Virus record (IMG/VR): IMGVR_UViG_3300027980_000083
Span: 1 to 30,572 of that record
Source: a virus
DNA: 30,572 nucleotides
Direction: 5' to 3' (one strand)
The position numbers and the translations under genes were made by a program. The stretch's first letter is position 1, and the number at the start of each line of letters is the position of its first letter. Positions 3,056 to 16,092 of this stretch are shown here, one piece after another. Below the pieces are notes generated by a model. It was not told where the DNA came from, did not search any database, and worked only from the letters and a program-made list of their open reading frames with translations.

Positions 3056-5938
3056 TCATTGAGGGTTATTCCTAAATTCAATCACCGGAGCAGGGAGCGG
3101 TTTGGGTAATTTCTGACCGGAACGAGCCGCATCCATAGCCAGCTTGTCCAATTCATTTCTGTACTTCTTGAGGAACTTAGCCTTAGCCACAGTCAGCCCC
3201 TCTCTCACAGCATCATTCAACAAATCACCCTGAGTTACCGCAGTCTGCAAACCAGCCTGATAAGTGGCTACAGAATTACGGGACGGGTCAGGTGGCCCAA
3301 AAGGAAGTCTCTGGAAACTATCTTTAGCGATATAGGCATTTACCATCTTCAGACGTTCCCGACCAACCAACTGATGAAATTCCCGCTTAGCCTCTGGACT
3401 GATATTCTTCAGCTTAACCGTCATACCGTTGTGCCTGATCTCGTCCGGCGCACGTTTCATCGGAACAAAGTTATCAACCATTGCTGTGGTTGCTTCCATC
3501 AGATTTCCCGTAGCTGTATAGAACGGACTGAATACCTCTGGGCCATAGAACGCATCATTACCCCAATAGTCCACAGCTAACGGCACATCACGATTCCAGA
3601 AGTCAGGCATATTCAACAAAGCCTGTGCTTGAACACCATCCCAGAATCCACCTACGTCTGTGTCATATCGGGCAACAGCACCATACCGACTAACATCTTC
3701 AGCCTTGCGGAAGGTACGACCCAAAGCAGAAGCTGGCTGGAAGGATGCAGCAAATCGCTGAGATGCCCTCCATGCAGCAGAACCGTCCTTACCAACAGTC
3801 TCAAAACTGTCCACCAAGTCAGACATACCCAACATGAAAGGCTTATCTTTCAACTGAGCAGCAAAGGCATACGCAGCAGCAGCAAATATCTGATCCCGCT
3901 CCTCCTGAGTGTCAGCCATATCAATCCACTCTTTGTAAGTGGCGACTGTGGCAAACATGGTAGATACAGGTTCAAGACCCTGATAACTCTGATACTCACC
4001 CGTAACAAGATTTTTAACTGAATACGGTTGCCATCCCTGTTGTCTGAGAGTATTCCGTAAATCGGTGTTACCAGGCCCACCCCCTGTAATAATGCCTTCC
4101 TCATACAGATGTGAAGCCCAAAGCATCAACGATGAACCTACAACAATACGAGCCTTAGCCATATCAGCCCTAGCACCACCAGCAGCCAAATCATCCCTCA
4201 CTGATTTGAGCAAAGGAGCGGCAGGAGTTCTCTCAATAGCTGATACAGAGATATTCGCTATGGTGTTATAGAAGGGGATAATCAGTTTGCCTACTGGCCC
4301 AGATGCTTCCCTTGCCTTACCAAAATATCTCAGCACATCACTCTTAATCTCATTGGTGAACGTCTGAACCTCTGCAAAGTCTGAAGCACCTTTGAACAAA
4401 TCGTAAAAGATACGCTCCTCTGCTCTCATCTTGGCTAGTGCTTGAATATCTAGCTCATCACCCTCCAAACCTTCTGAACGCAACTTCTGAAGTATGTTCT
4501 CCACGTTAGGCTTAGACATGAACTCGTGAACACGCTTAGCTAGTGCATCACCCTTCAACCCTTCACTGAGAGCCTGACGGGTAGCGAGTGCTTCAAACTC
4601 CATACGGAATGCCATAGCTTTGAAGAACTCATCTTCAGCAAGCAATGCGCGACCTGGAACAGAGTTAATAGCACCTAACCAATCGAATGCCATACCAAAA
4701 GGATTGTCCTCATTAAACCCTAATGCCTTAGAACTAATCGGATTCTCATACTCTTGGAGTTTCCTTGCACCAAACGCAGACTTGTCCGTTACCAGTGTCT
4801 TAGCACCCATACGGAATCCATCAATAAAGGAGTTAGGCAATGCGGTTAGTTGAGCCAGAGCCTCTTGCGGAAAGACCTCACCAGACCCCCTAATGTTCAT
4901 ATTGATTACAGGGATGGTCGCATCAGGAAGTCTCTTGGTTGTCTGAGAAATAACGCCACCAACGAATCTCTCAGGCACAGAGAGAGCCGCCATCAAGCTA
5001 TTACCCGTAATGTTCTTGATGTGAGTGGACGGGCCAAAGAGCAAACCCATCAGACGAATAGCAATAATCGCATTCGCCCAATTCATCAAGCCCACCTTAT
5101 CCACCATCTTCGCAGCATCAGCAGCATTCTCAGCAGAACCAACAGCCTTAGCCTTAGCCAAGATAGCGTGACGACCACCACCCGCATCAACCATACTTCT
5201 CAATGATTCATCGTTAAGCGGTTGAGCGTTGATCTTGTGAGCAGCCAATGCACGAGCAGTATCCCGCGAGTTACCCTGTAGACCGCTCTGCAAAGCGATA
5301 TGAAGGTTCAAAGAACGCTGGTACTCAACCAATTCAGTATCCGGCACTTCGCCCTTAGCAGCACGTTCAGTAATGGTTGCGCCCCATTCTTGAAGTCGCT
5401 CAGCAGAAGTGATAACAATCTGACGGGCTTTTGTGACTTGCTCATCATTGAGAATATCACCCGTCTTACGGGTCAGGAGTTTCTTGATAGTCTCCTGTTC
5501 GTCAATCTTCTCAGCACCCTCTAATGTTTCATCAAAAGACTTAGGACGATAAGCAGCATTCTCCGTATGGTCAGAGACAAACTCCATCAGCTTCAATACT
5601 TCATCCGGCGAATCGAGATTGTCGGTGTTGATTCCGTGATCTGTCGGGCCACGACCTGGAGTTAAGGTATCAGCCTCTCTCGCAGCTTCACCCACAGAGA
5701 AAGGCACAAAGTCCTCTGAAGGAGTCTCCATGCCTCGTGTAGCCAAGTCCTCTGTAGGAGAGACACCAATCTTCTCAACAATCTTTTCCTTCAGACCAAC
5801 TTGCGGAGTGCCTTCTGGAGATTGCTTACCAATCTCAATCTGTAGGGATTCTTCTCCGGTTTCGGGATTAACAACCTTTCCCTCGCCTTCGGGAATCTCC
5901 TTACCTTTAATCTTTGGAATCTTCGGGATTCTGGCCAT
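3056..5938 (-). CDS. Large internal virion / polyvalent protein
   Basis: A 960-aa protein with a Lys/Pro/Glu-rich N-terminus, an acidic disordered region to about 100, and mostly helical sequence beyond. About 285-330 carries a hydrophobic IIAIRLMGLLFGPSTH patch followed by KNITGN and SLMAAL, a signature I associate with the large polyvalent proteins (LPD-type domains) of phages, which are packed in the head and ejected with the DNA. Hydrophobic helices near 595-625 and 665-690 could help form a channel across the envelope, as T7 gp15/gp16 do. I see no lytic transglycosylase motif. Its ATG overlaps the stop of the upstream gene, and a short untranslated stretch (3010-3055) separates it from the fibre gene. 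Ejection-protein status rests on size and position. Confidence 0.72.
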   Translation of the reverse strand: MARIPKIPKIKGKEIPEGEGKVVNPETGEESLQIEIGKQSPEGTPQVGLKEKIVEKIGVSPTEDLATRGMETPSEDFVPFSVGEAAREADTLTPGRGPTDHGINTDNLDSPDEVLKLMEFVSDHTENAAYRPKSFDETLEGAEKIDEQETIKKLLTRKTGDILNDEQVTKARQIVITSAERLQEWGATITERAAKGEVPDTELVEYQRSLNLHIALQSGLQGNSRDTARALAAHKINAQPLNDESLRSMVDAGGGRHAILAKAKAVGSAENAADAAKMVDKVGLMNWANAIIAIRLMGLLFGPSTHIKNITGNSLMAALSVPERFVGGVISQTTKRLPDATIPVINMNIRGSGEVFPQEALAQLTALPNSFIDGFRMGAKTLVTDKSAFGARKLQEYENPISSKALGFNEDNPFGMAFDWLGAINSVPGRALLAEDEFFKAMAFRMEFEALATRQALSEGLKGDALAKRVHEFMSKPNVENILQKLRSEGLEGDELDIQALAKMRAEERIFYDLFKGASDFAEVQTFTNEIKSDVLRYFGKAREASGPVGKLIIPFYNTIANISVSAIERTPAAPLLKSVRDDLAAGGARADMAKARIVVGSSLMLWASHLYEEGIITGGGPGNTDLRNTLRQQGWQPYSVKNLVTGEYQSYQGLEPVSTMFATVATYKEWIDMADTQEERDQIFAAAAYAFAAQLKDKPFMLGMSDLVDSFETVGKDGSAAWRASQRFAASFQPASALGRTFRKAEDVSRYGAVARYDTDVGGFWDGVQAQALLNMPDFWNRDVPLAVDYWGNDAFYGPEVFSPFYTATGNLMEATTAMVDNFVPMKRAPDEIRHNGMTVKLKNISPEAKREFHQLVGRERLKMVNAYIAKDSFQRLPFGPPDPSRNSVATYQAGLQTAVTQGDLLNDAVREGLTVAKAKFLKKYRNELDKLAMDAARSGQKLPKPLPAPVIEFRNNPQ

Positions 5939-8900
5939 TATGAACCCTCCGGTGCTTTGATGAACTTACCTGATTTATCATGCCACCTACCATACTCATC
6001 CTGATAGCGTCCTTCTTTGTCTGCTTCATACAAACCTTTGGCAATAACTGAACCAACAAGTGTTGAATACATCAGATTGGTGTAGTTCTTGAGCTTATCA
6101 AAGCGGTCTGTTTTATCTTTATAGGTTTCAACCTTAATCCCGTTTCTCTCTAAAGTTTTTATCGTATGTTCAGAGGCATCCTCAGGAACTAGAGCCAAGT
6201 TAAACTCATCTAGCTCAACAACACGATTTGGCTTGCCTTCAAAATAATCTGTAGCACCATTAGCTAATTCATCAAAGAAGTCATTAATTTCTCTAATCAA
6301 CTCGTCTGGAACATATTCATAATAATCTTCAAATCTAGACTCACCAGCAGCAATTTCAGCCATTCTATTTTGATCCATAGAACTCTGAGAAAAAGGATTA
6401 GAATCTTTATACCGCGAGTATTGACCTAACTCATGTGATAGGTCAGAGAACTTCTGATTCATAGCGTCCTTGTATGCTTGAACATCATCAGATGATTTTA
6501 TCTTTCCTCTTGCATCCTTTATCTCTTTTAAGGTTCTAAATTGAGGAGCGAGATGTGCGCGTAATGCACCAGCACCATAAACATTAGCACCACCATCCGC
6601 GCCTCTTATCTCCTTCCTCATTAGTTTCAAAGAGTTATCTAGGCTTGCATCAACCCATCTTTTCCTCCCAGATGGGGTAAATCCAGCAAACAACTTTTCA
6701 TGGTAATTCATTCCAACTTGGCCCTCTACACCTTTTCGCCATTGTCGGAATTCATCAACATAATCATTAGCTTTGTTCTTAACAGCTTCTTTCCATTCAG
6801 CAGCACTATCAAACTTTGCAGGGTCAGGCATTTCGCCTTTATCCCACAAGAATCTTGCCTTACCTGTTGCGCCTCTCAAAGCCTCATCAAGCCCCATATC
6901 GTCTAAATCAAGATAACCAAAGTCAGGATAACCCTGACCTCTTGAATCTCTTATATGTTCACCGCCATAAGGTTCAAGCAAATAGTCCTCCAATTTTGAT
7001 TTGGCTGTTCTAGTGTAGAACTTCTCCGCTCTTGGTTCTCTAGGTGTATAAGCATCAGCAGAGTAAACAGGATTAGATTTTTTAGTGGGCTTAACCATCC
7101 TCTCATCTGTAAACAATGAAATCTCGCCAAACCCTTCTAGCGGATTGTCTGCCTTAACTACTGCTATTGAAGGCATAGGTGCGCCACCACGCTTATCCAT
7201 GTAGGCTAAGTTTTCCTCAGTAAGATTATGCTGAGTGATTAGTTCATCATCCAATCCCTTAGCACCACCACTAGCATCATCCCCATGCATCTCATCCATA
7301 GGTCTAGCATCGTCTAAGAACTGCTGTCTTTCAGCACCCTCTATAACCTCACCATTCCTAGATTTGATAGTTACCAAGTCCTCATCAAATACAACAATGT
7401 TTCTCGTGCCTTCACCAGCAGAGCGAGAGTTACCGTCAAAGTAGCGAATGCCCGGTATGCCTAGTTCGTTGAGTTTTGCGGAGGCAAGTTCTTGGGCGCG
7501 GTTGCTGTAAATACTCCCGCCATTCGTGCCGCCCTCCATGTTTACCAATCGGGTATACAGGAATCGTCCAGTGTCTCTCTCCAGATCAAGCGGGGTTCTG
7601 AGATAGTCATCAAATCCCTCGGACTCTCGAATGTACTCTAACGCCTCATTCTTCGTTATCGGTTCATAACCCTCTATCTTAGCCGCCTCGTCAGTCCAAA
7701 CCCCATTGGGGTCATTTTTCTGCAATATCCCTATCAGTTCTTCGCGTGACATTGACTCATAATCAACACCCCCCATCATGTTTATTTCTTCTGCAACCAG
7801 CCGCACACTCTCAGGCTGCTCACTCAAAGGAGCATCCCAATCAAGCATCTTGGCTATGGCTTCGTCAGGGATGTCTACTTCGTAGATGTGTCCTGAATCA
7901 AGGGCTATAGCTTTATACTCACCCCCAATATCCGCTATTGCTGAACCGTCACGGAATCTATAAACGTCAGCAGGTTGACCGTCTACATCCACACCCTTGA
8001 TATAATCATCCGCACCAAAGTTACGTCTAACTAAATTATCAGCAGCTATTTCATCGGCAGCATCTTCAAACCCAACATCTTCAGGCTCTATACCTATGCG
8101 CTTAAGGTCATCGCTGCCTAGATACTTCTGATTGCCAAACGCGCCCACTACTCGCGACGCTGTTGACTCGGTGTGGGCTGGCCTTAATGCTCTAACGCCT
8201 TCTATTGCTGAATCTTGGTCAAGGTCAGAAAGCCTCTCTCTGTAACCTCCTGCAATCCCCTTATTCTCAGCAAAATACAGCCCATGCCCATACGCTTGCG
8301 CACCCTCACCCGTGCCAATCTTGTCTATACGAAACCGACCCATAGGACGCTGCTCAATCACCTTGCCAACGGTAGGTGGCTGGTCTGACTGAACCCACTT
8401 TCTAGAACCGTCAGGCATCTCTACCAACCATTCAGCAGAAAATCTGTGTGGTGATCCGTGATAAGCAGCAGCACCCCTCTGTCTACCCATCTTCCCTAAA
8501 GGTTGTGGAGCAGGGGCTTCATTCGCCATATCCTTCATCTTACGGGCAAAGCGTAAAATACCAGCAGCACCCATAATCAATCCGTCAAATGTCAGACCGA
8601 TAACAGAACCCTCACCCGCAGCATAAAGCCTACGCTCCATGCGGCTCTGAAAGTCAGAATCCTCCATGTCGTATTCAACGTAGTTGAAGATGTCCTGGCG
8701 CATGGCATCCAATTCTTCATCCGTCATCTGACTGATAATCGGCAATGCTTCCCGCAGATTTACACCAACAGTCTCCTGAGTCCATTCATTCAATGATTCG
8801 GCATTCTTCAAGACGGATTCAGTAATAAATTCTTCCTCTGGATTGAAAGCAGATGCATCACCTACAGCACCAGCAACCGCCTTACTCTCGACACCTAACG

Positions 8901-9561
8901 CCTTTAGCAATTTACCAGCAGGGCCAGCAGCACCAAGGAATTGAGCGATAGGTTGAGCGATAGCACCACCCGCACCCTCTGGGTCAGGCATATGCTGACT
9001 CACAGGATTCTGGTACTTCTCCCAATCACTAGACGGATAATCACCATACTTTCTTGAAAAGCCAGACCGTTCCGGCAATTCCTCTAATGTAGGGCGAACT
9101 TGAGCCACATCAAGAATGGTATTAGCAAGACCTTCAAGACCCTTTGTTGCACCCTTAGCCACACCCTTAGCAACATCACCTGCAATCCATGCAGCCTCAC
9201 CCACAGCACCCATTTCCTCCTGTTTCTCAGGTGGAATCACATAGTCATAAAGACTTGCTCCCTTATTACCTTCGGTCTTACCAACAACCTGTTCATCTGC
9301 TTCTCGACCACCAATGTTTACGACAAGAGAACGCTCACCCGTCTGGGGATCAACAACGTAATTAGATGGACGGTCATACGGTTGTGTGGGGAATTTGTCA
9401 GGAACATACTGATTAATGCCCCTCGTATAACCTTCATACTTGGCACGTTCTTTAGGCGACAATGTTTCTGCCTGTTCGGGAGAAATCTCCTTGTAGACCT
9501 TTCTCTCAGAACCACCGTTACGAATGGACTCAAACCACTGTTCGTCAGTCATCTCATTCAT
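5938..9561 (-). CDS. Giant polyvalent virion protein with ADP-ribosyltransferase (ART-PolyVal) domain
   Basis: About 1,207 aa. An internal ADP-ribosyltransferase of the polyvalent type is readable: a YHGSPHRF start motif near residue 367, then IGTGEGAQAYGHGLYFAEN near 415-433 (NAD-binding core), HIYEVDIPDEA near 560, and a closing GIPGIRYFDG...GTRNIVVFDEDL segment near 700-730. This order is characteristic of ARTs found in large phage polyvalent proteins thought to be injected with the genome. The segments before and after are helical and unassigned; Gly/Ala-rich hydrophobic runs occur near 125-150 and 195-235. The start at 9561 is preferred over an ATG at 9576 because AAGGTG lies at good spacing before it and gives a short ATGAATGA overlap with the upstream stop. 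Targets of the ART are unknown. Confidence 0.8.
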   Translation of the reverse strand: MNEMTDEQWFESIRNGGSERKVYKEISPEQAETLSPKERAKYEGYTRGINQYVPDKFPTQPYDRPSNYVVDPQTGERSLVVNIGGREADEQVVGKTEGNKGASLYDYVIPPEKQEEMGAVGEAAWIAGDVAKGVAKGATKGLEGLANTILDVAQVRPTLEELPERSGFSRKYGDYPSSDWEKYQNPVSQHMPDPEGAGGAIAQPIAQFLGAAGPAGKLLKALGVESKAVAGAVGDASAFNPEEEFITESVLKNAESLNEWTQETVGVNLREALPIISQMTDEELDAMRQDIFNYVEYDMEDSDFQSRMERRLYAAGEGSVIGLTFDGLIMGAAGILRFARKMKDMANEAPAPQPLGKMGRQRGAAAYHGSPHRFSAEWLVEMPDGSRKWVQSDQPPTVGKVIEQRPMGRFRIDKIGTGEGAQAYGHGLYFAENKGIAGGYRERLSDLDQDSAIEGVRALRPAHTESTASRVVGAFGNQKYLGSDDLKRIGIEPEDVGFEDAADEIAADNLVRRNFGADDYIKGVDVDGQPADVYRFRDGSAIADIGGEYKAIALDSGHIYEVDIPDEAIAKMLDWDAPLSEQPESVRLVAEEINMMGGVDYESMSREELIGILQKNDPNGVWTDEAAKIEGYEPITKNEALEYIRESEGFDDYLRTPLDLERDTGRFLYTRLVNMEGGTNGGSIYSNRAQELASAKLNELGIPGIRYFDGNSRSAGEGTRNIVVFDEDLVTIKSRNGEVIEGAERQQFLDDARPMDEMHGDDASGGAKGLDDELITQHNLTEENLAYMDKRGGAPMPSIAVVKADNPLEGFGEISLFTDERMVKPTKKSNPVYSADAYTPREPRAEKFYTRTAKSKLEDYLLEPYGGEHIRDSRGQGYPDFGYLDLDDMGLDEALRGATGKARFLWDKGEMPDPAKFDSAAEWKEAVKNKANDYVDEFRQWRKGVEGQVGMNYHEKLFAGFTPSGRKRWVDASLDNSLKLMRKEIRGADGGANVYGAGALRAHLAPQFRTLKEIKDARGKIKSSDDVQAYKDAMNQKFSDLSHELGQYSRYKDSNPFSQSSMDQNRMAEIAAGESRFEDYYEYVPDELIREINDFFDELANGATDYFEGKPNRVVELDEFNLALVPEDASEHTIKTLERNGIKVETYKDKTDRFDKLKNYTNLMYSTLVGSVIAKGLYEADKEGRYQDEYGRWHDKSGKFIKAPEGS

Positions 9562-11125
9562 TAACGTCACCTTCATCGGTAGGCACTAAAAGCCCGTTCC
9601 TTTTACGGAACTCATTGAGATTCTTTTTCAAGTCCACAACTTCTTGAGGAGTCATTCTGTCCATTGTGTTATCCAAGTTCTGCTGCATAAGAGCCGCAGC
9701 ATCAGAAGGTTCAAGTCCTTGCGTCCCTGTAGCAATCTTCGATAAAGAAAGATTCAATGCCGCATCACCGGAGATAGAGCCTGCCTTAACTGCCTTCACC
9801 TGTTTTTTCCAACCATCTATTTTTTCATCGCGGAACTTGCGGAAGTCAAAGCCAAGAGGGTCATTAAATTTGTTATCGGTAAACTGATTCACAATATCTT
9901 GTGCAATCTGCCTAAGAACCGCATTCTTCTCGTTCTCAAAGAATGAAGCAATGTCATCAATAGGCGTACCCGTAAGCTGAAAAAGAACAGAACGCACAAT
10001 TTCCTTCTCAGTAGGATTGAACAGAAGTTCTTTGTAGTTCTTGGCAATGTTCCCGTATTCTTTCTGAAATGTGTCTTTTGAAATAAGACCATTACGAGCC
10101 AAGTTAATCAGGTCAGTACGGGCTTTCGGTAAACTGATAGTGCCATCCGCAACACCAAACAGCAGGGTATTAACCTGTGCTAACCCCTCATCCGTATCAG
10201 ACAAACTCGCACCCGTAGCGGTTCTCAATGCCTTCATGTTAGTGACAGCATCTTCATCTGTGATATTCGGATCATTCGCAATGCGATCTGGACTCCACTC
10301 ATTCGGATTAGTCCAGATGTCCCTCACAACAGCATCAGACCGTTCCTGTGACTGTTTCTCATCCCATGCATCCCTGTCATTGCGATAGGACGCAATAGCC
10401 CCAGAGATAGCAGTACGCTCATCATGGTCTAAACGGCCATCTGTCCTCGCCTTCTCCTCACGAGCAACCAATTCCTCATCAGTCATATTTGCCAGATTCA
10501 AAGTGTATTCATCAGTAATGCGACCCAATCGAACCTCTGCACGTTCCTTAGCTACCTCATCATCAGTCAGAATCCCTGCCTCAATGCCTAATGTGGTGGA
10601 CTCATCCAGCTTAATCCATTTCTCTGGGCCACCAGTGCGCTTGATTAAATCCCTTGTCTCAGCATGATCCAAACTCATGCGGTTAATCTGAGTCTTTATC
10701 TGTATCTGTTTAGCCTTAACAGAACCCAATCCCACCATGCTTGAAATGCTGGTGTTAAGACCTTCTCTCAAAGCCTTATCAGGGATATTCGGCAAATCAC
10801 CTCTAAGACCACCCTCACCCTCTGCACCATCTACAAGTGCAGTCCATTCCTCCTGCATAACCTCTTCAGTAGGTTTGCCATCAATGCTAGGCAATTCCCA
10901 ACGTGGGTCAGCCAAGAAATTGTTAATCTTGTAGTTGACCTCCGCTTCTTGTTTCTTAGCGCGTACCTTCGCCTCTTGCTGACGGATGTAGTCAAAGGTA
11001 TTTAACGCAGCATTCGTAATAACCCTGCCCTTCTCCATTGAGGCAAGTTTAGGTGCAGCCGCAAGCTGCGGGCTTACAGTCTCACGCTTTCTTGGTGTGG
11101 CAAATTGAATCTTGATGTTAGCCAT
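9554..11125 (-). CDS. Hypothetical internal virion protein
   Basis: A 523-aa, charged, largely helical protein with long stretches likely to form coiled coil (about 60-90 and 190-260, rich in Glu/Lys/Arg/Ala/Asp). The N-terminus (ANIKIQFATPRKRETVSPQ) is basic and probably extended. No enzymatic motif is visible. It sits between the gp14-like core protein and the ART-bearing giant protein, exactly where podoviruses encode ejected core proteins, so a structural or ejection role is likely but inferred from position. The ATG lies one base past the preceding TGA, and GGGGCTGA acts as a close ribosome binding site. Its stop overlaps the start of the giant downstream gene, indicating coupled translation. 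I do not recognise the family. Confidence 0.65.
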   Translation of the reverse strand: MANIKIQFATPRKRETVSPQLAAAPKLASMEKGRVITNAALNTFDYIRQQEAKVRAKKQEAEVNYKINNFLADPRWELPSIDGKPTEEVMQEEWTALVDGAEGEGGLRGDLPNIPDKALREGLNTSISSMVGLGSVKAKQIQIKTQINRMSLDHAETRDLIKRTGGPEKWIKLDESTTLGIEAGILTDDEVAKERAEVRLGRITDEYTLNLANMTDEELVAREEKARTDGRLDHDERTAISGAIASYRNDRDAWDEKQSQERSDAVVRDIWTNPNEWSPDRIANDPNITDEDAVTNMKALRTATGASLSDTDEGLAQVNTLLFGVADGTISLPKARTDLINLARNGLISKDTFQKEYGNIAKNYKELLFNPTEKEIVRSVLFQLTGTPIDDIASFFENEKNAVLRQIAQDIVNQFTDNKFNDPLGFDFRKFRDEKIDGWKKQVKAVKAGSISGDAALNLSLSKIATGTQGLEPSDAAALMQQNLDNTMDRMTPQEVVDLKKNLNEFRKRNGLLVPTDEGDVNE

Positions 11126-11126
11126 T

Positions 11127-11552
11127 TCAGCCCCAGGTGTTGTATGCCGTGTTAATCGAACTCTGTAGACCAGTGGTTAATGCACCAACCTGCTTCGCTC
11201 TAATGCTTGAAGTAGTAGACCTCTGATTTGCAGCAATCACTTCAGCACCCGCCTTAACCTTCTCTTCGGTGTAATATCTTTCTAAATCGAACTCGTAAGC
11301 CTGTTTCGCCATAACCTCTAATGGAGAACCTTCCATCTTCACACCGGATGCAGCGTACTCACCCTCAGTCTGACCCATCCACGCCCTCTGTTCTTCGGAA
11401 ATCCGGCGAATCTCCTCATCACCTTCAAGACGGTTAATCTTCTGCTGTTTATCTCCAGCGGCTCTCGCATCGTCTTTAGCCTGTTCCCCAGAATAAATCT
11501 GATAGCCCGTACCTACTGCGGCTATACCTATGGCTGCTACTGCAAATGGCAT
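11127..11552 (-). CDS. gp14-like internal core / ejection protein
   Basis: A 141-aa protein with a short hydrophobic Ala/Gly/Ile N-terminus (about residues 2-18, PFAVAAIGIAAVGTGYQ) followed by an extended helical, Glu/Gln/Lys-rich body (30-75) and an Ala-rich C-terminus. This is the usual look of small podovirus core proteins (T7 gp14-type), which carry one membrane-active N-terminal helix and are released into the host envelope at infection. The middle motif with YAASGVKMEGSPLEVM also occurs in my recollection of such proteins. GGAG eight bases before the ATG supports the start. The gene overlaps the end of the hydroxylase gene by 16 bp. Family assignment is by pattern and position, with moderate certainty. 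Confidence 0.65.
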   Translation of the reverse strand: MPFAVAAIGIAAVGTGYQIYSGEQAKDDARAAGDKQQKINRLEGDEEIRRISEEQRAWMGQTEGEYAASGVKMEGSPLEVMAKQAYEFDLERYYTEEKVKAGAEVIAANQRSTTSSIRAKQVGALTTGLQSSINTAYNTWG

Positions 11553-12079
11553 GATTCTTTCTCCACACAGACAATCATAGCTATACGCTCATCGTCTGAA
11601 TCGTTCTCAACCCAATGAGGAATGGAGTTATCAAACTCATACACCTCACCCTCTTCCGGTTCAATCACACCATCCTCAAAGCAAAACTTCGCTCCCTTAC
11701 CATTCTTCACCGGAACGTAAAACTTTCTGTGATTATCCGAATGCCAAGACTTATCTACATGGGGCTTAATCTGTCCACCCTTCGGCAACTTGGTTACTAA
11801 AATTCCACCCAAATCACCCCCAGTAATCCGGTGCAAATTCATAATCACGTTAATCGTGCAAGGTAATGTCCAAGCCAACGGATACCACTCACACTCAATC
11901 GGGCCATCCTTGTGAACTTCCTCAACCGGACAATATCTCAACCACAAATCCGTACTCTCCTCATGGGGAGAACCATCAAACGTGCGTAATGGAATCTCGC
12001 CAAAGCGGTCAGCAATGGATTCCATCTCTGCCTTCATAGCAGAAACGTCAATCTCACAGACTTTCTGGAAACTGGACAC
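11537..12079 (-). CDS. Aspartyl/asparaginyl beta-hydroxylase-like 2OG-Fe(II) dioxygenase
   Basis: A 180-aa protein. It has the iron-binding HxD at H107/D109 (in QIKPHVDKSW) and the distal His at H155 (in YEFDNSIPHWVEN), followed by R165 (in DDERIAMIV), positioned to bind 2-oxoglutarate. The block from about 100 to 172 follows the aspartyl/asparaginyl beta-hydroxylase family closely, including the G-E-x-Y-x-F-D-N run before the distal His. Expected chemistry is Fe(II)- and 2OG-dependent hydroxylation of Asp/Asn side chains; the substrate here is unknown. GTG start with AAGGAG ten bases upstream. It overlaps the sulfotransferase gene by 26 bp and the core protein gene by 16 bp, so it is translated within the virion operon. 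It is not a virion component in known podoviruses and looks like acquired cargo. Confidence 0.88.
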   Translation of the reverse strand: MSSFQKVCEIDVSAMKAEMESIADRFGEIPLRTFDGSPHEESTDLWLRYCPVEEVHKDGPIECEWYPLAWTLPCTINVIMNLHRITGGDLGGILVTKLPKGGQIKPHVDKSWHSDNHRKFYVPVKNGKGAKFCFEDGVIEPEEGEVYEFDNSIPHWVENDSDDERIAMIVCVEKESCHLQ

Positions 12080-12572
12080 TCGCCATAAACTCCTTCATAG
12101 CAACCCCGTCATAAATGAACGGGTCATTCACCTGGACGTTCATGTTCTTCAACATATTCGCCCTATCCATATCACAGGGAGTCCCTGTCAGATATTCCCA
12201 GATCACCCCCAAATGCTCATCAATGTCATCAAAGTGAATCCGTAAGCCCTTCACCGAATCAAGTCGTTCCTTCAACTGGTACAGATATTCGGACATATCA
12301 ATACCAAACACCTCAATCCCATACTCAATAGACCGCTCCACATCACGCTCAATTATCAGCTTTGGGGCATGGGGAAAGTACGCCTCCAAATCAACCAGCA
12401 TGGTCGCTGTAGACGCATCTCCTGAACCTCTGACCTTCTCAACATACTCGTACTCAGTCAGACAGCCATCCAAAGCCTCGTGATGACAGAAGAACCCGTC
12501 ATAGGTTAAGAAGTTCGCAAGCCAAGCTGTACGACTCCTCGGAAGACCTAAAATGAAAAACTCCTTAGTCAT
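12054..12572 (-). CDS. PAPS-dependent sulfotransferase-like protein
   Basis: A 172-aa protein from the preferred start at 12572 (ATGACTAA overlap with the gp12-like stop; GGTGG just upstream). Residues 5-20 (FFILGLPRSRTAWLAN) form the 5'-phosphosulfate loop of P-loop sulfotransferases, and LIIERDVERSIEYGI (72-86) carries the Arg/Ser pair expected for 3'-phosphate binding of PAPS. Family members usually have 200-300 aa, so this is a compact version. The expected reaction is transfer of sulfate to a hydroxyl of a glycan, lipid or protein Tyr; the acceptor cannot be told from sequence. Sandwiched between the tail tube gene and the hydroxylase gene, with overlaps on both sides. The upstream 21-codon extension of the frame lies inside the tail gene and is probably not translated. 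Confidence 0.82.
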   Translation of the reverse strand: MTKEFFILGLPRSRTAWLANFLTYDGFFCHHEALDGCLTEYEYVEKVRGSGDASTATMLVDLEAYFPHAPKLIIERDVERSIEYGIEVFGIDMSEYLYQLKERLDSVKGLRIHFDDIDEHLGVIWEYLTGTPCDMDRANMLKNMNVQVNDPFIYDGVAMKEFMASVQFPESL

Positions 12573-14946
12573 TGCCCACCGTAATTTGACCGTAAACGCC
12601 CAATACCTCAGTAGGTACGGGCTTGTCCTGTTCAATCGTTAAACTCGCTGTATTGGAATGCCCCAACGTATTTGCTTGGAACTCCCCAGACTTCGGCTCT
12701 GTAATCATGCTCATCAAGTCAACAGAACCCCGTCCTACAACCCTGTCACCATTCAATAAAGGTGCATGGGAATTATACAACCTCAACCACACTTCAACCC
12801 ATCTCTTAGATGTAATCGAACCATACCCATCACCTACCAACTCATTGGTCACAAACCTCGCCATGTAAGGTAAGCCAACCCAATACTCAGCCAATTGCTC
12901 ATCAACAATGATTCGACCCGTATCTACAACATACTCCTTCTGCACGAATCCAAATCCACTCGGTTGCCCCGCCTTCTTACCCAACACCGTAACCGTCTTG
13001 CCTTCAAGATGTGCAAGCCCTGAGATTGTCGTTGTATTCGGGTCAGAATCATCATCCGTTGTACCCGTAATTGATCCGTCAAGATTCCACCTATCCACAC
13101 CTGGACTCGGCATAGACTCAATCATCAATTTACTCGTACTCGGTGATGAAGGGTCTGGCCTGTCAATAAGTACCGTTAATTCATCCTCACTGGTATCTTC
13201 ATTGAATGTCGGAACAATGTCCTTCACAACCCCATCAATCGGACACTGAAACCACGCAATAGTCTCTGTCTCCATCTGATAGGTCACGCCGACCAAAGTC
13301 CCGTCATCCATCACCATGTAAACGATAGTCTCCGGTACATACACCAGAGCCAAACGCTTAATGCCTCTTTTGGCTAAATGCTCACTAGCCCAAGTAATAT
13401 CCTGTGATACAAACGAACCCGTATCAAAGTTCCTCTGCGCCCGTCTTAACTTGCGACCACCCTGCTCAATGTATAAGACTTCCTGACCCAACATAATGGG
13501 GTCAGCCTTCTTACTCTTACGAGCAGTCTGACGGGCCGCATTAACCTTAGCAGGGGCAATAAAGCGACCACCCGCATTAATCACCCAATCGCCAGCACTC
13601 GTGCCAATCAGAAGTCCTCTGTTCGATTCCAGCCAGCGAATACGGGAACTCTGACGGGTATCCAAATCAAACGAATAACCCTCATTGTCATCAAAGCCCA
13701 GAATGAAATAATCGTAACGATTAAGCCGTGAACCCCAAACAGTAGCAGCAGCAGCGCGAGAACCACCCACAACCAACCTCTGCTGATAGAAGGTAGCCAC
13801 TGAAGGAAAACCCCTATCCCAAGGGGAATACTCGGAATCCAACACCCAAGCTACAGACGCTTGCCATGCCTCGTAATACGGTTCTGAACCAGATTGAGTC
13901 CAATACAACTGCCAATTCGCTCCAACACCAGGTTCAGTGTTCGCTGTAGCTTTGTGAGATTGAATACAGGTGTACCAACTACCACCATTGGTTACGACAA
14001 AAGGATAAGACCATGCAGGTTCACCCCTGCCCTGCCCTTGTGTAATAACGGTTTCAGTAATGTCAGTACCCGCAGCAGCAGTATTCACTACGTCAAATGT
14101 GACAATCACAGAAGCGGCCTCATCAGCCATAGTCACCCGCCATACCAAGCCTCCCTGACTCTGAACAGATACATCACCGTCCTTAATAAATTGTGAATCT
14201 TGAATGGCATCACGGATGATAGACTCCATGCCCGTTGCATCATTCAGATAACGGTACTGCTTAACCTCGTAAATCTTGGAAGTCTCACCGTCCGTACCCA
14301 CAACCTCCGTTTCACCCCCCGTATCTACAGAAAGCAATACCTTGTTCTTCACGTTCTCCACAGATACAGAGAACAAATCACCCGTAGCCCAAGTGCCTGT
14401 AAACGACACATCAAACACAGATGACACAGTATTGGGACTATTCGCATCGTTAAAGTCACGCTCAGGCACTAGATTCTGAGGAACGGGGGATACCGATACG
14501 TTATTGATCGAGTTAATCACAAAGATGTACGGAGGATAATCAGGATGCACCATAGAAAAACGGTCATCCCTCTGAGTCAGGTTCACATCCTTCAACTCAT
14601 CCGACAGATACGGCACAACCAACTCCAGCGTACCACCCCCCTGCGCCTGTAACAGATTGCCCTTCTGCCAGAAACGAACATACCCCGCTCCAAGCTCAAC
14701 AATCACATCCGAATCATCACCCCCCAGATTGATGTCAAACAAGCGTGTATTCGCATCTGACGGGGTTTTGGGATCACCCACATACTTAGTACCCGCTCGC
14801 ATAGAAATCGAACCCTGAGAACGTGGGACAAAGTTAGAGCATTCACGACCACCAAACTGGAATCCCTCCATATCGGTGCGTCCATATACACGAGGAGACA
14901 ACTCACCCCCGTTCAATGCATGAATTGTGTACCGTCTTTTAGCCAA
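12565..14946 (-). CDS. Tail tubular protein B-like (T7 gp12-like) tail protein
   Basis: A 793-aa protein. The N-terminus (HALNGGELSPRVYGR, then GGRECSNFVPRSQGSISMRAG) and the SVATFYQQRLVVGGS...VWGSRLNRYDYF block near 380-420 are signatures of the large tail proteins of BPP-1-like and other podoviruses, which form the nozzle below the gp11 ring. About 318-350 contains WYTCIQSHKA...EPGVGANWQLYW, resembling a type 5/12 carbohydrate-binding insertion. The start is TTG, chosen because it gives the family-typical beginning and lies about five bases after AGG; the next in-frame ATG would remove the conserved N-terminus. Its start overlaps the stop of the upstream structural gene by 8 bp. High confidence in family. 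Confidence 0.88.
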   Translation of the reverse strand: MAKRRYTIHALNGGELSPRVYGRTDMEGFQFGGRECSNFVPRSQGSISMRAGTKYVGDPKTPSDANTRLFDINLGGDDSDVIVELGAGYVRFWQKGNLLQAQGGGTLELVVPYLSDELKDVNLTQRDDRFSMVHPDYPPYIFVINSINNVSVSPVPQNLVPERDFNDANSPNTVSSVFDVSFTGTWATGDLFSVSVENVKNKVLLSVDTGGETEVVGTDGETSKIYEVKQYRYLNDATGMESIIRDAIQDSQFIKDGDVSVQSQGGLVWRVTMADEAASVIVTFDVVNTAAAGTDITETVITQGQGRGEPAWSYPFVVTNGGSWYTCIQSHKATANTEPGVGANWQLYWTQSGSEPYYEAWQASVAWVLDSEYSPWDRGFPSVATFYQQRLVVGGSRAAAATVWGSRLNRYDYFILGFDDNEGYSFDLDTRQSSRIRWLESNRGLLIGTSAGDWVINAGGRFIAPAKVNAARQTARKSKKADPIMLGQEVLYIEQGGRKLRRAQRNFDTGSFVSQDITWASEHLAKRGIKRLALVYVPETIVYMVMDDGTLVGVTYQMETETIAWFQCPIDGVVKDIVPTFNEDTSEDELTVLIDRPDPSSPSTSKLMIESMPSPGVDRWNLDGSITGTTDDDSDPNTTTISGLAHLEGKTVTVLGKKAGQPSGFGFVQKEYVVDTGRIIVDEQLAEYWVGLPYMARFVTNELVGDGYGSITSKRWVEVWLRLYNSHAPLLNGDRVVGRGSVDLMSMITEPKSGEFQANTLGHSNTASLTIEQDKPVPTEVLGVYGQITVGND

Positions 14947-15460
14947 TGCGACCTACCCAAAACTGTCCACCAAGAACCTCAAACGTCCTGGCAGAATTAT
15001 CCGAATCCATAAACAAACTGACAGAAGCAGGATCAGTGAATATGCCAACAGCAGCTATAGTCCCAATACCACCGGAAGGTGGCTCTTCCTTAGCTAACAC
15101 CTTAGTTTCTGAACCTGTATCAATCGTCAACTCAAATAAACGATTCTCAGTCAACTCAACAACCAAGCAAACGCCTATCAGATAAGTACCTGTCTCCAAT
15201 ACCCCTATATTCCCTAAGCCAGCATTAGGGACAACATTTGCAGTAGAAGGTATCTCTGAAGGCCAATTAATAATCTTAGACCCGTCAGCAATCAGAACCC
15301 CTGAAGGTGCTGTAAATCGCAAACCACCGTAATCAGGCTGGAGATATTGAAAGTGCGGATCAGGGTCAGTCTCGTGAATGAATAAAGACTTCTGAACAAT
15401 GCCCCACTCCCTCTGAGTCAAACTCCGAATGAATGAGCGTAAGTCTGTCCAGGTAGCCAT
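14939..15460 (-). CDS. Hypothetical structural protein between gp11 and gp12 homologues
   Basis: A 173-aa protein. It begins with a helix (DLRSFIRSLTQREWGIVQKSLF) and continues as Gly/Thr/Val-rich beta structure through a GTYLIGVCLVVELTENRLFELTI core to a C-terminal FEVLGGQFWVGRIG. The beta pattern resembles the jelly-roll (C1q/TNF-like) proteins found as phage tail or neck decorations, but I see no diagnostic motif, so this is a guess. It lies between two tail genes, with a TAATG overlap at its start and an 8-bp overlap with the gp12-like gene at its end. A virion role is likely from context. Confidence 0.6.
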   Translation of the reverse strand: MATWTDLRSFIRSLTQREWGIVQKSLFIHETDPDPHFQYLQPDYGGLRFTAPSGVLIADGSKIINWPSEIPSTANVVPNAGLGNIGVLETGTYLIGVCLVVELTENRLFELTIDTGSETKVLAKEEPPSGGIGTIAAVGIFTDPASVSLFMDSDNSARTFEVLGGQFWVGRIG

Positions 15461-16092
15461 TACCAGCCCACTCTGTGACCAGCCACCCTTGTACCCGTAA
15501 GACGATTGTCCGTCTGGAATCTGTCGTGAGTACCCTCTTTAGCATCCGTGTTCTGAGCTACGTTATACGCCTCCTGATACTTCAACTCGCAAAACTGTCG
15601 AGTCTCAGCACTTCTTGAAAACGCATTACACAGTGAAGCTGCCAGATGCCATGATAAGGCTTCGGTCGCATCAATCGACCACTGACCCAAGTCTACATCT
15701 TTCGTATAGCGAATCAGAGCAGGATTGATGTTGCAGGAGACATAGATGCCATTCACCTCATAGCGGTCTACGTTCCTCAAACCAGTGTCATAAACAGTCG
15801 TTACAGTCGCATCACGAGATGGATGCTTTACAGCCTGTACCAAAACGCAATCATTCGGCACTTGGTAGGTGTAATCAAAAGAAGGATTCTTGTCACAGTT
15901 ATCACACTCAACAGCCAACTCAACCCAACGGGTAGCAAAGTTCCAATTGGCCCTGCGAAGAATGTATTGCTTGGAAGTGACAAGTTCTAAACGTGCAAGA
16001 CGCGCACGTTCATTGGAATCTGATAGGGAAGTAAGAAGAGCCTCACCGATACGTCCTAAAGCCCGATTGACTATTTCAATCTCAGTGGTCAT
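15460..16092 (-). CDS. Tail tubular protein A-like (T7 gp11-like) head-tail adaptor
   Basis: A 210-aa protein. The opening EIVNRALGRIGEALLTSLSD, the R...W.FAT pattern around 45-52, the YQVPNDCVLVQAV strand near 98 and the late EALSWHLAASLCNAFS...KYQEAYNVA helices near 145-185 fit the gp11/gatekeeper family that forms the dodecameric ring under the portal. Length is close to T7 gp11 (196 aa). Four Cys between 60 and 175 are unusual but not informative. Start supported by AAGGAG eight bases before the ATG. It is separated from the capsid gene by a 71-bp gap with two hairpins and couples directly (TAATG) to the next structural gene. Confident from motif order and synteny. Confidence 0.85.
   Translation of the reverse strand: MTTEIEIVNRALGRIGEALLTSLSDSNERARLARLELVTSKQYILRRANWNFATRWVELAVECDNCDKNPSFDYTYQVPNDCVLVQAVKHPSRDATVTTVYDTGLRNVDRYEVNGIYVSCNINPALIRYTKDVDLGQWSIDATEALSWHLAASLCNAFSRSAETRQFCELKYQEAYNVAQNTDAKEGTHDRFQTDNRLTGTRVAGHRVGW

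Follow-up and report, generated by a model that had tools for sequence, protein, structure and literature searches.

Sulfotransferase-like and 2OG-Fe(II) hydroxylase genes in a recurring, swappable slot beside the ejection-protein genes of podoviruses

The window, the whole stretch of DNA analysed here, spans the 30,572 bases of an IMG/VR virus record, and its minus strand carries a late operon. Two small genes of this operon, both on the minus strand, encode a sulfotransferase-superfamily P-loop protein (SULF; 12054-12572, 172 aa, ATG at 12572, stop at 12054) with an LPRSRTAW loop and His31-Glu32, and a PF05118 2OG-Fe(II) hydroxylase (HYD; 11537-12079, 180 aa, GTG start at 12079, stop at 11537) with the triad H107/D109/H155 and R165. 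Upstream of them, on the same strand, are the genes for gp11-like tail tubular protein A (15460-16092; phrog_394, E 1e-36) and gp12-like tail tubular protein B (12565-14946; phrog_376 tail protein, E 3e-117). Downstream, again on the minus strand, the gp14-like first ejection (internal virion) protein (11127-11552) starts with MPF and has a weak match to phrog_418 (E 2e-4). It is followed by a 523-aa protein in the gp15 position (9554-11125), a probable second ejection protein by its position and without a family match, by a large protein of 1212 aa assigned to gp16 by position (5938-9576; phrog_22978, E 4e-23, and phrog_873, E 1e-6), and by an internal virion protein-like product of 960 aa (3056-5938; phrog_6651, E 7e-30), both on the minus strand. 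The SULF and HYD reading frames were found where the earlier note had placed them, between the gp12-like and gp14-like genes, with overlaps of 8 bp (gp12-like/SULF), 26 bp (SULF/HYD), and 16 bp (HYD/gp14-like). The pair was also present on a second contig, which is 99-100% identical to the window and not independent of it. Direct DNA relatives of the window were not found among cultured phages, and the search of IMG/VR for relatives of its tail gene returned the near-identical contig only. The arrangement is not a chance one, since each gene has homologues at this very position on dozens of unrelated contigs. Elsewhere in the window, close to the tail-fibre-like gene, positions 248-1018 encode a protein resembling SGNH/GDSL hydrolases (PF13472, E 5e-5, below the cut-off), which may deacetylate host surface sugars.

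HYD scored 35.9 bits against PF05118, above the curated cut-off of 22.6, and the same family was matched by 60/60 HYD relatives. The iron-binding HxD...H residues (H107, D109, and H155) and the 2OG-binding arginine (R165) were invariant in all 60 aligned sequences, and N151 and N159 were likewise without variation. The likeness to human AspH (Asp_Arg_Hydrox, PF05118) consists of the family match above the cut-off and the HxD...H and Arg residues; in contrast to AspH, the phage HYD is a single 180-aa domain. The best solved relative was 5apa (E 5e-5), and free-proline hydroxylases as well as AspH were among the PDB matches. PF05118 also takes in LpxO-like lipid hydroxylases. A membrane segment is absent from both HYD and SULF. 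The family phrog_274, named 'DNA endonuclease V', also matches the window HYD (11537-12079, E 5e-7), and this family label looks wrong.

Against PF13469 (Sulfotransfer_3), SULF scored 14.1 bits, below the curated cut-off of 27, and it matched phrog_10855 with an E value of 4e-14. Among 62 SULF relatives, 20 matched PF13469 at E values of up to 0.1 (best 1e-7), and one, L074, scored 27.6 bits against the cut-off of 27. A search of the PDB with the SULF profile gave no significant match. In the family alignment of 62 rows, the LPRS-x-T-x-W loop and His31 were invariant (62/62), and the adjacent Glu32 was kept in 55/62; His31, placed after the first helix, is the presumed catalytic base. The 5'-phosphosulfate loop, P-[KR]-S-G-[TS], reads PRSRT in SULF, with P, R, S, and T in 62/62 sequences and Gly replaced by Arg in 61/62. 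For the 3'-phosphate pair R76...S84, the window SULF has R76 and Tyr84, so the canonical Ser is missing; both canonical residues occurred in only 21/62 sequences. SULF shares with the Sulfotransfer_3 (PF13469) enzymes the P-R-S-x-T loop, the His-Glu after the first helix, and a C-terminal LHxxxxDI region, whereas it differs from them in the Arg for the loop Gly, the absent 3'-phosphate Ser, and the score below the family cut-off. With the P-loop and His kept, the 3'-phosphate site incomplete, and Arg standing for Gly, SULF is classed here, by its sequence, as a sulfotransferase-superfamily P-loop protein with an uncertain donor. The key residues of both proteins had been described as intact; this held for HYD (triad and Arg) and for the P-loop and His-Glu of SULF, but not for the PAPS 3'-phosphate site, half of which is missing. 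In the non-structural region of Nipunavirus records (e.g., L003:7995-8528), a distant relative of SULF was observed whose loop reads PRSGT; it lies beside a zinc-finger gene and is annotated as a nucleotide triphosphate hydrolase.

The HYD and SULF profile searches yielded 80 loci each, and position was used in neither search. For the slot counts, relatives were removed at 90% identity, other fetched loci were added, and only loci with enough DNA were considered; the next gene was called 'ejection type' if a home-made profile matched it or if its product began with MP[WFI] and it lay at the right distance. A gene of this type was located directly after the slot in 74/79 HYD, 44/61 SULF, 58/60 cupin, and 8/9 GNAT non-redundant loci, and the slot gene and the ejection gene usually overlapped by about 10-15 bp. 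By the strict criterion, 17/61 SULF loci fell outside the slot, among them the Nipunavirus ones beside the zinc-finger gene. The downstream proteins matched phrog_598 ('DNA ejection', the P22 gp7 family) in 34/63 cases, and others matched further ejection or internal-virion families. In some genomes, the genes upstream of the slot were of P22-type gp4/gp10 (Hc3, phrog_578), at times with an additional collar/fibre gene; in others, including the window, they were T7-type tail genes. Between the tail genes and the slot, variable genes were found (collar, 92-aa, and 111-aa proteins), and the ejection gene was constant. When 84,980 genomes of bacteria and archaea were scanned, 22 HYD loci were detected with the same arrangement, in apparent prophages of Variovorax, Paraburkholderia, Cupriavidus, Lysobacter, Acidomonas, and others. 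The slot pattern is common to T7-like and P22-like architectures and to the prophages of isolates.

Random positions in related phages, which the earlier note had considered as an outcome against its proposal, were not observed; the position is well conserved and goes with the ejection-protein gene for HYD, SULF, and the cupins. HYD was also checked for the variable placement of a free-position auxiliary metabolic gene, and it did not vary in this way, being fixed in the 74/79 loci given above. The conserved position favours a putative role in the particle over cargo inserted at random positions. In many P22-like contigs, a conserved beta-rich protein of 110-112 aa (MTVTVKVLVPAK...) was observed just upstream of the slot (L226:2188-2526, L239:7947-8285, and L081:4267-4599). 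Two contigs carried two copies of one locus about 33 kb apart (L010/L011 in IMGVR_UViG_3300026519_000012 and L022/L029 in IMGVR_UViG_3300027734_000108), which suggests assembled concatemers or double genomes.

The partners of the slot genes were found to change. Among 89 non-redundant HYD loci, HYD was accompanied by SULF in 31 (one of them with a putative glycosyltransferase in addition), by a cupin in 39, and by a GNAT in 9, and it was alone in 10, some of these at contig ends. Thus, HYD occurred without SULF in 58/89 loci, and SULF without HYD in 38/69 non-redundant SULF loci, including cases with SULF alone in the slot. The proposal that the two genes form a coupled pair was not borne out in its obligate sense: most relatives of each lack the other, and HYD is as often found with a cupin. 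Carriers include the cultured Pseudomonas phage PfAn1, with HYD and a GNAT, and Variovorax prophages with HYD and a cupin. A strictly sequential chemistry, in which SULF would sulfate a hydroxyl made by HYD, is made less likely by the many loci that have only one of the two genes. SULF and cupin occurred together in 0/89 HYD loci, against 13.6 expected (not corrected for kinship). On the HYD tree, a quick one with not all forks well supported, the partner switches at least 8 times; for example, the cupin locus L008 falls inside a 99%-supported group with the SULF loci L069 and L132. A second survey was anchored on the tail gene Hc3 alone, and not on the enzymes, and covered 63 slots. Of these, 34 had a cupin, 4 a GNAT, and 1 HYD with a GNAT (together 39/63); the other 24 included at least 6 GNATs recognized by eye, 5 helical proteins without assignment, and about a dozen seemingly empty slots. 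In some P22-like slots, apparently all-helical proteins of about 150 aa without a Pfam match were observed (L181:9655-10101 and L206:9748-10272, with copies in L211, L216, and L222). At L057:4097-4867, and also in L048, L058, and L153, HYD is separated from the ejection gene by a gene whose 256-aa product appeared glycosyltransferase-like by eye and had no significant Pfam or PHROGs match; by this visual assignment, a slot of the L057 type would hold SULF, HYD, and a glycosyltransferase.

The cupin proteins of phrog_12032/24280 (Thalassomonas BA3, Shewanella X14, and Vibrio VPMS1) occupy the same slot as SULF and HYD, directly before the DNA-ejection gene, and differ from them in having a cupin fold, whose metal ligands are mostly lost when HYD is absent. 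All four ligands were intact in 50/50 cupins with HYD versus 4/38 without it. This split is suggestive only, because a single change on the cupin tree suffices to explain it; as independent evidence of coupling to HYD, the retention of the metal site counts as about one event. The slot cupins L022:5536-5931, L165:5917-6468, L170:5896-6390, and their relatives have been named 'short tail fiber protein' or 'tail fiber adhesin' (phrog_12032, phrog_24280). Because these cupins directly precede DNA-ejection genes and no support for a fibre role, or for the 'short tail fiber' annotation, was found, the naming is probably mistaken. A longer slot cupin of about 290 aa (L168:5890-6765, L172, L176, L183, and L217) is extended at its C-terminus by about 150 aa, which match a SET domain very weakly (E 0.015).

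The slot itself is occupied in well-studied phages. T7 gene 13 (PF11090, phrog_308) lies between gp12 and gp14 and shares with SULF and HYD the slot, late expression, a small size (about 140 aa), and the contact with the first ejection gene, but it has no sequence relation to them. P22 gene 14 (DUF2824, PF11039), between gene 26 and gene 7, likewise stands before an ejection gene and belongs to a family different from those of SULF and HYD. Homology of SULF and HYD to PF11090 or PF11039, sought with Pfam profiles, gave no match. T7 gp13 is named 'probable scaffold protein' in Pfam and internal virion protein in PHROGs, P22 gp14 is assigned to head morphogenesis, and the slot cupin of Shewanella X14 is annotated as a structural gene. 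A GNAT next to ejection genes has been compared to T7 gp13 (PMC6775973). The view of T7 gp13 as a GNAT is taken from that paper and not from the present comparison: hhalign of T7 gp13 and P22 gp14 against the slot GNATs, with shallow alignments, was not significant. One of the Hc3-survey slot proteins taken for GNATs by eye, L188, matched DUF2824 (the P22 gp14 family) above the cut-off, and over the same residues it also matched a GNAT model.

The closest cultured relatives of the window by the tail gene have a GNAT in the same slot. It is annotated as such in the pelagiphages HTVC204P and Skadi-6 and in Vibrio phage 1.182.O, the slot protein of Yersinia phage YeP6 is a GNAT (PF00583, E 2e-10), and the slot of Baldr is seemingly empty. 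HTVC204P, Skadi-6, 1.182.O, and YeP6 have a related tail gene and the gene order of the window around the slot, but one GNAT where the window has SULF and HYD. The simplest account of this evolutionary route would be that SULF and HYD displaced such a GNAT. The proposed modification module, which had been presented as new, is new in its occupants and not in its place, the slot being known from T7 gene 13, P22 gene 14, and the GNAT compared to gp13; hydroxylase, sulfotransferase, and cupin occupants were not found described as a slot in the open-licence papers searched.

We give an even chance to the reading that SULF and HYD took the place of a gp13-type morphogenesis protein and function during assembly, with the ejection proteins as their most likely targets and with a putative activity and substrate. 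Under this reading, SULF and HYD would now fill a conserved morphogenesis slot immediately before the gene of the first ejection protein, having replaced in the window lineage the GNAT of the nearest cultured relatives. They would be made late, in putative translational coupling to gp12 upstream and gp14 downstream, and would act in the cytoplasm during head assembly, before or during the loading of the ejection proteins. HYD would hydroxylate an ejection protein, most likely the gp14-like one, on one of its side chains; SULF would bind a nucleotide donor and transfer a group to, or prepare, the same set of proteins, so that these load or insert correctly. Catalysis by the two proteins is presumed from the invariant HYD site and the SULF loop, and we infer that modification, not chaperoning, is what matters. 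Of the late action on virion proteins suggested earlier, the link to the virion stands by the conserved position, and tail and ejection proteins as substrates are told apart solely by the ejection gene being the constant neighbour. A tail fibre as the common substrate is weakened because the collar/fibre gene is missing next to many slots.

Several findings count against this reading: SULF and cupin replace each other despite their unrelated chemistry, most SULF proteins are short of part of the PAPS site, 17/61 SULF loci fall outside the slot, and the comparison of T7 gp13 with the slot GNATs was not significant. Because of the interchange of SULF and cupin, and because most cupins that occur without HYD no longer have an intact set of metal ligands, a non-catalytic assembly role for the slot is possible. 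The main rival, to which we assign a smaller though appreciable probability, is that the slot proteins are assembly chaperones, i.e., enzyme folds reused to bind and deliver ejection proteins, with catalysis secondary or lost. Several unrelated folds in one slot, the metal ligands lost by cupins without HYD, the largely lost PAPS 3'-phosphate site of SULF, and the scaffold and head morphogenesis names of T7 gp13 and P22 gp14 are consistent with it. However, the HYD triad and 2OG arginine kept in 60/60 sequences and the SULF P-loop and His kept in 62/62 are unexpected for a plain chaperone, and the HYD-linked cupins retain all four metal ligands (50/50).

It is rather unlikely that the genes encode auxiliary or host-surface enzymes, with HYD acting on lipid A, a siderophore, or another small molecule and SULF sulfating a surface glycan, for rival exclusion or release. 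In phages, sulfotransferases and 2OG oxygenases usually appear in lists of auxiliary genes whose role is unclear (PMC10580990), which agrees with this explanation, as do the free-proline hydroxylases found besides AspH among the PDB matches of HYD; nevertheless, the place beside the ejection gene is fixed in unrelated phages, neither protein has a membrane segment, and T7 gene 13 and P22 gene 14 occupy the same slot. An insertion site in the late operon that is merely tolerant, collecting unrelated cargo kept since it is harmless, would explain the non-homologous occupants and the slots that are empty or hold uncharacterised helical proteins, but it is very improbable given that phages with little sequence in common repeatedly carry members of the same four or five families, that SULF and cupin exclude each other, and that the P22 and T7 occupants are listed as morphogenesis genes. 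Least probable of all, and hardly to be expected, is that SULF and HYD are themselves packaged and ejected to act on a host target in the new cell, although the internal virion label of T7 gp13 in PHROGs and the structural annotation of the Shewanella X14 cupin speak for it.

An observation made on one phage is extended here to a swappable slot that recurs beside ejection genes. Extending the reading of SULF and HYD as modifying enzymes to the whole slot, we tentatively suggest, as a possibility still short of probable, that podoviruses modify their ejection proteins before packaging and swap the enzyme in the slot (acetyltransferase, hydroxylase, sulfotransferase-like protein, metal cupin, or perhaps glycosyltransferase); in the phage studied here, an injected channel protein would be hydroxylated and would receive a sulfo or similar group. 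Gene 13 of T7 and gene 14 of P22, the occupants of this slot, adjoin the DNA-injection genes and are still without a clear function. Well-preserved modifying enzymes in the same slot elsewhere point to a testable one, the chemical finishing of ejection proteins. If this is true, a set of genes that currently carry tail-fibre or auxiliary-metabolic annotations would get new labels.
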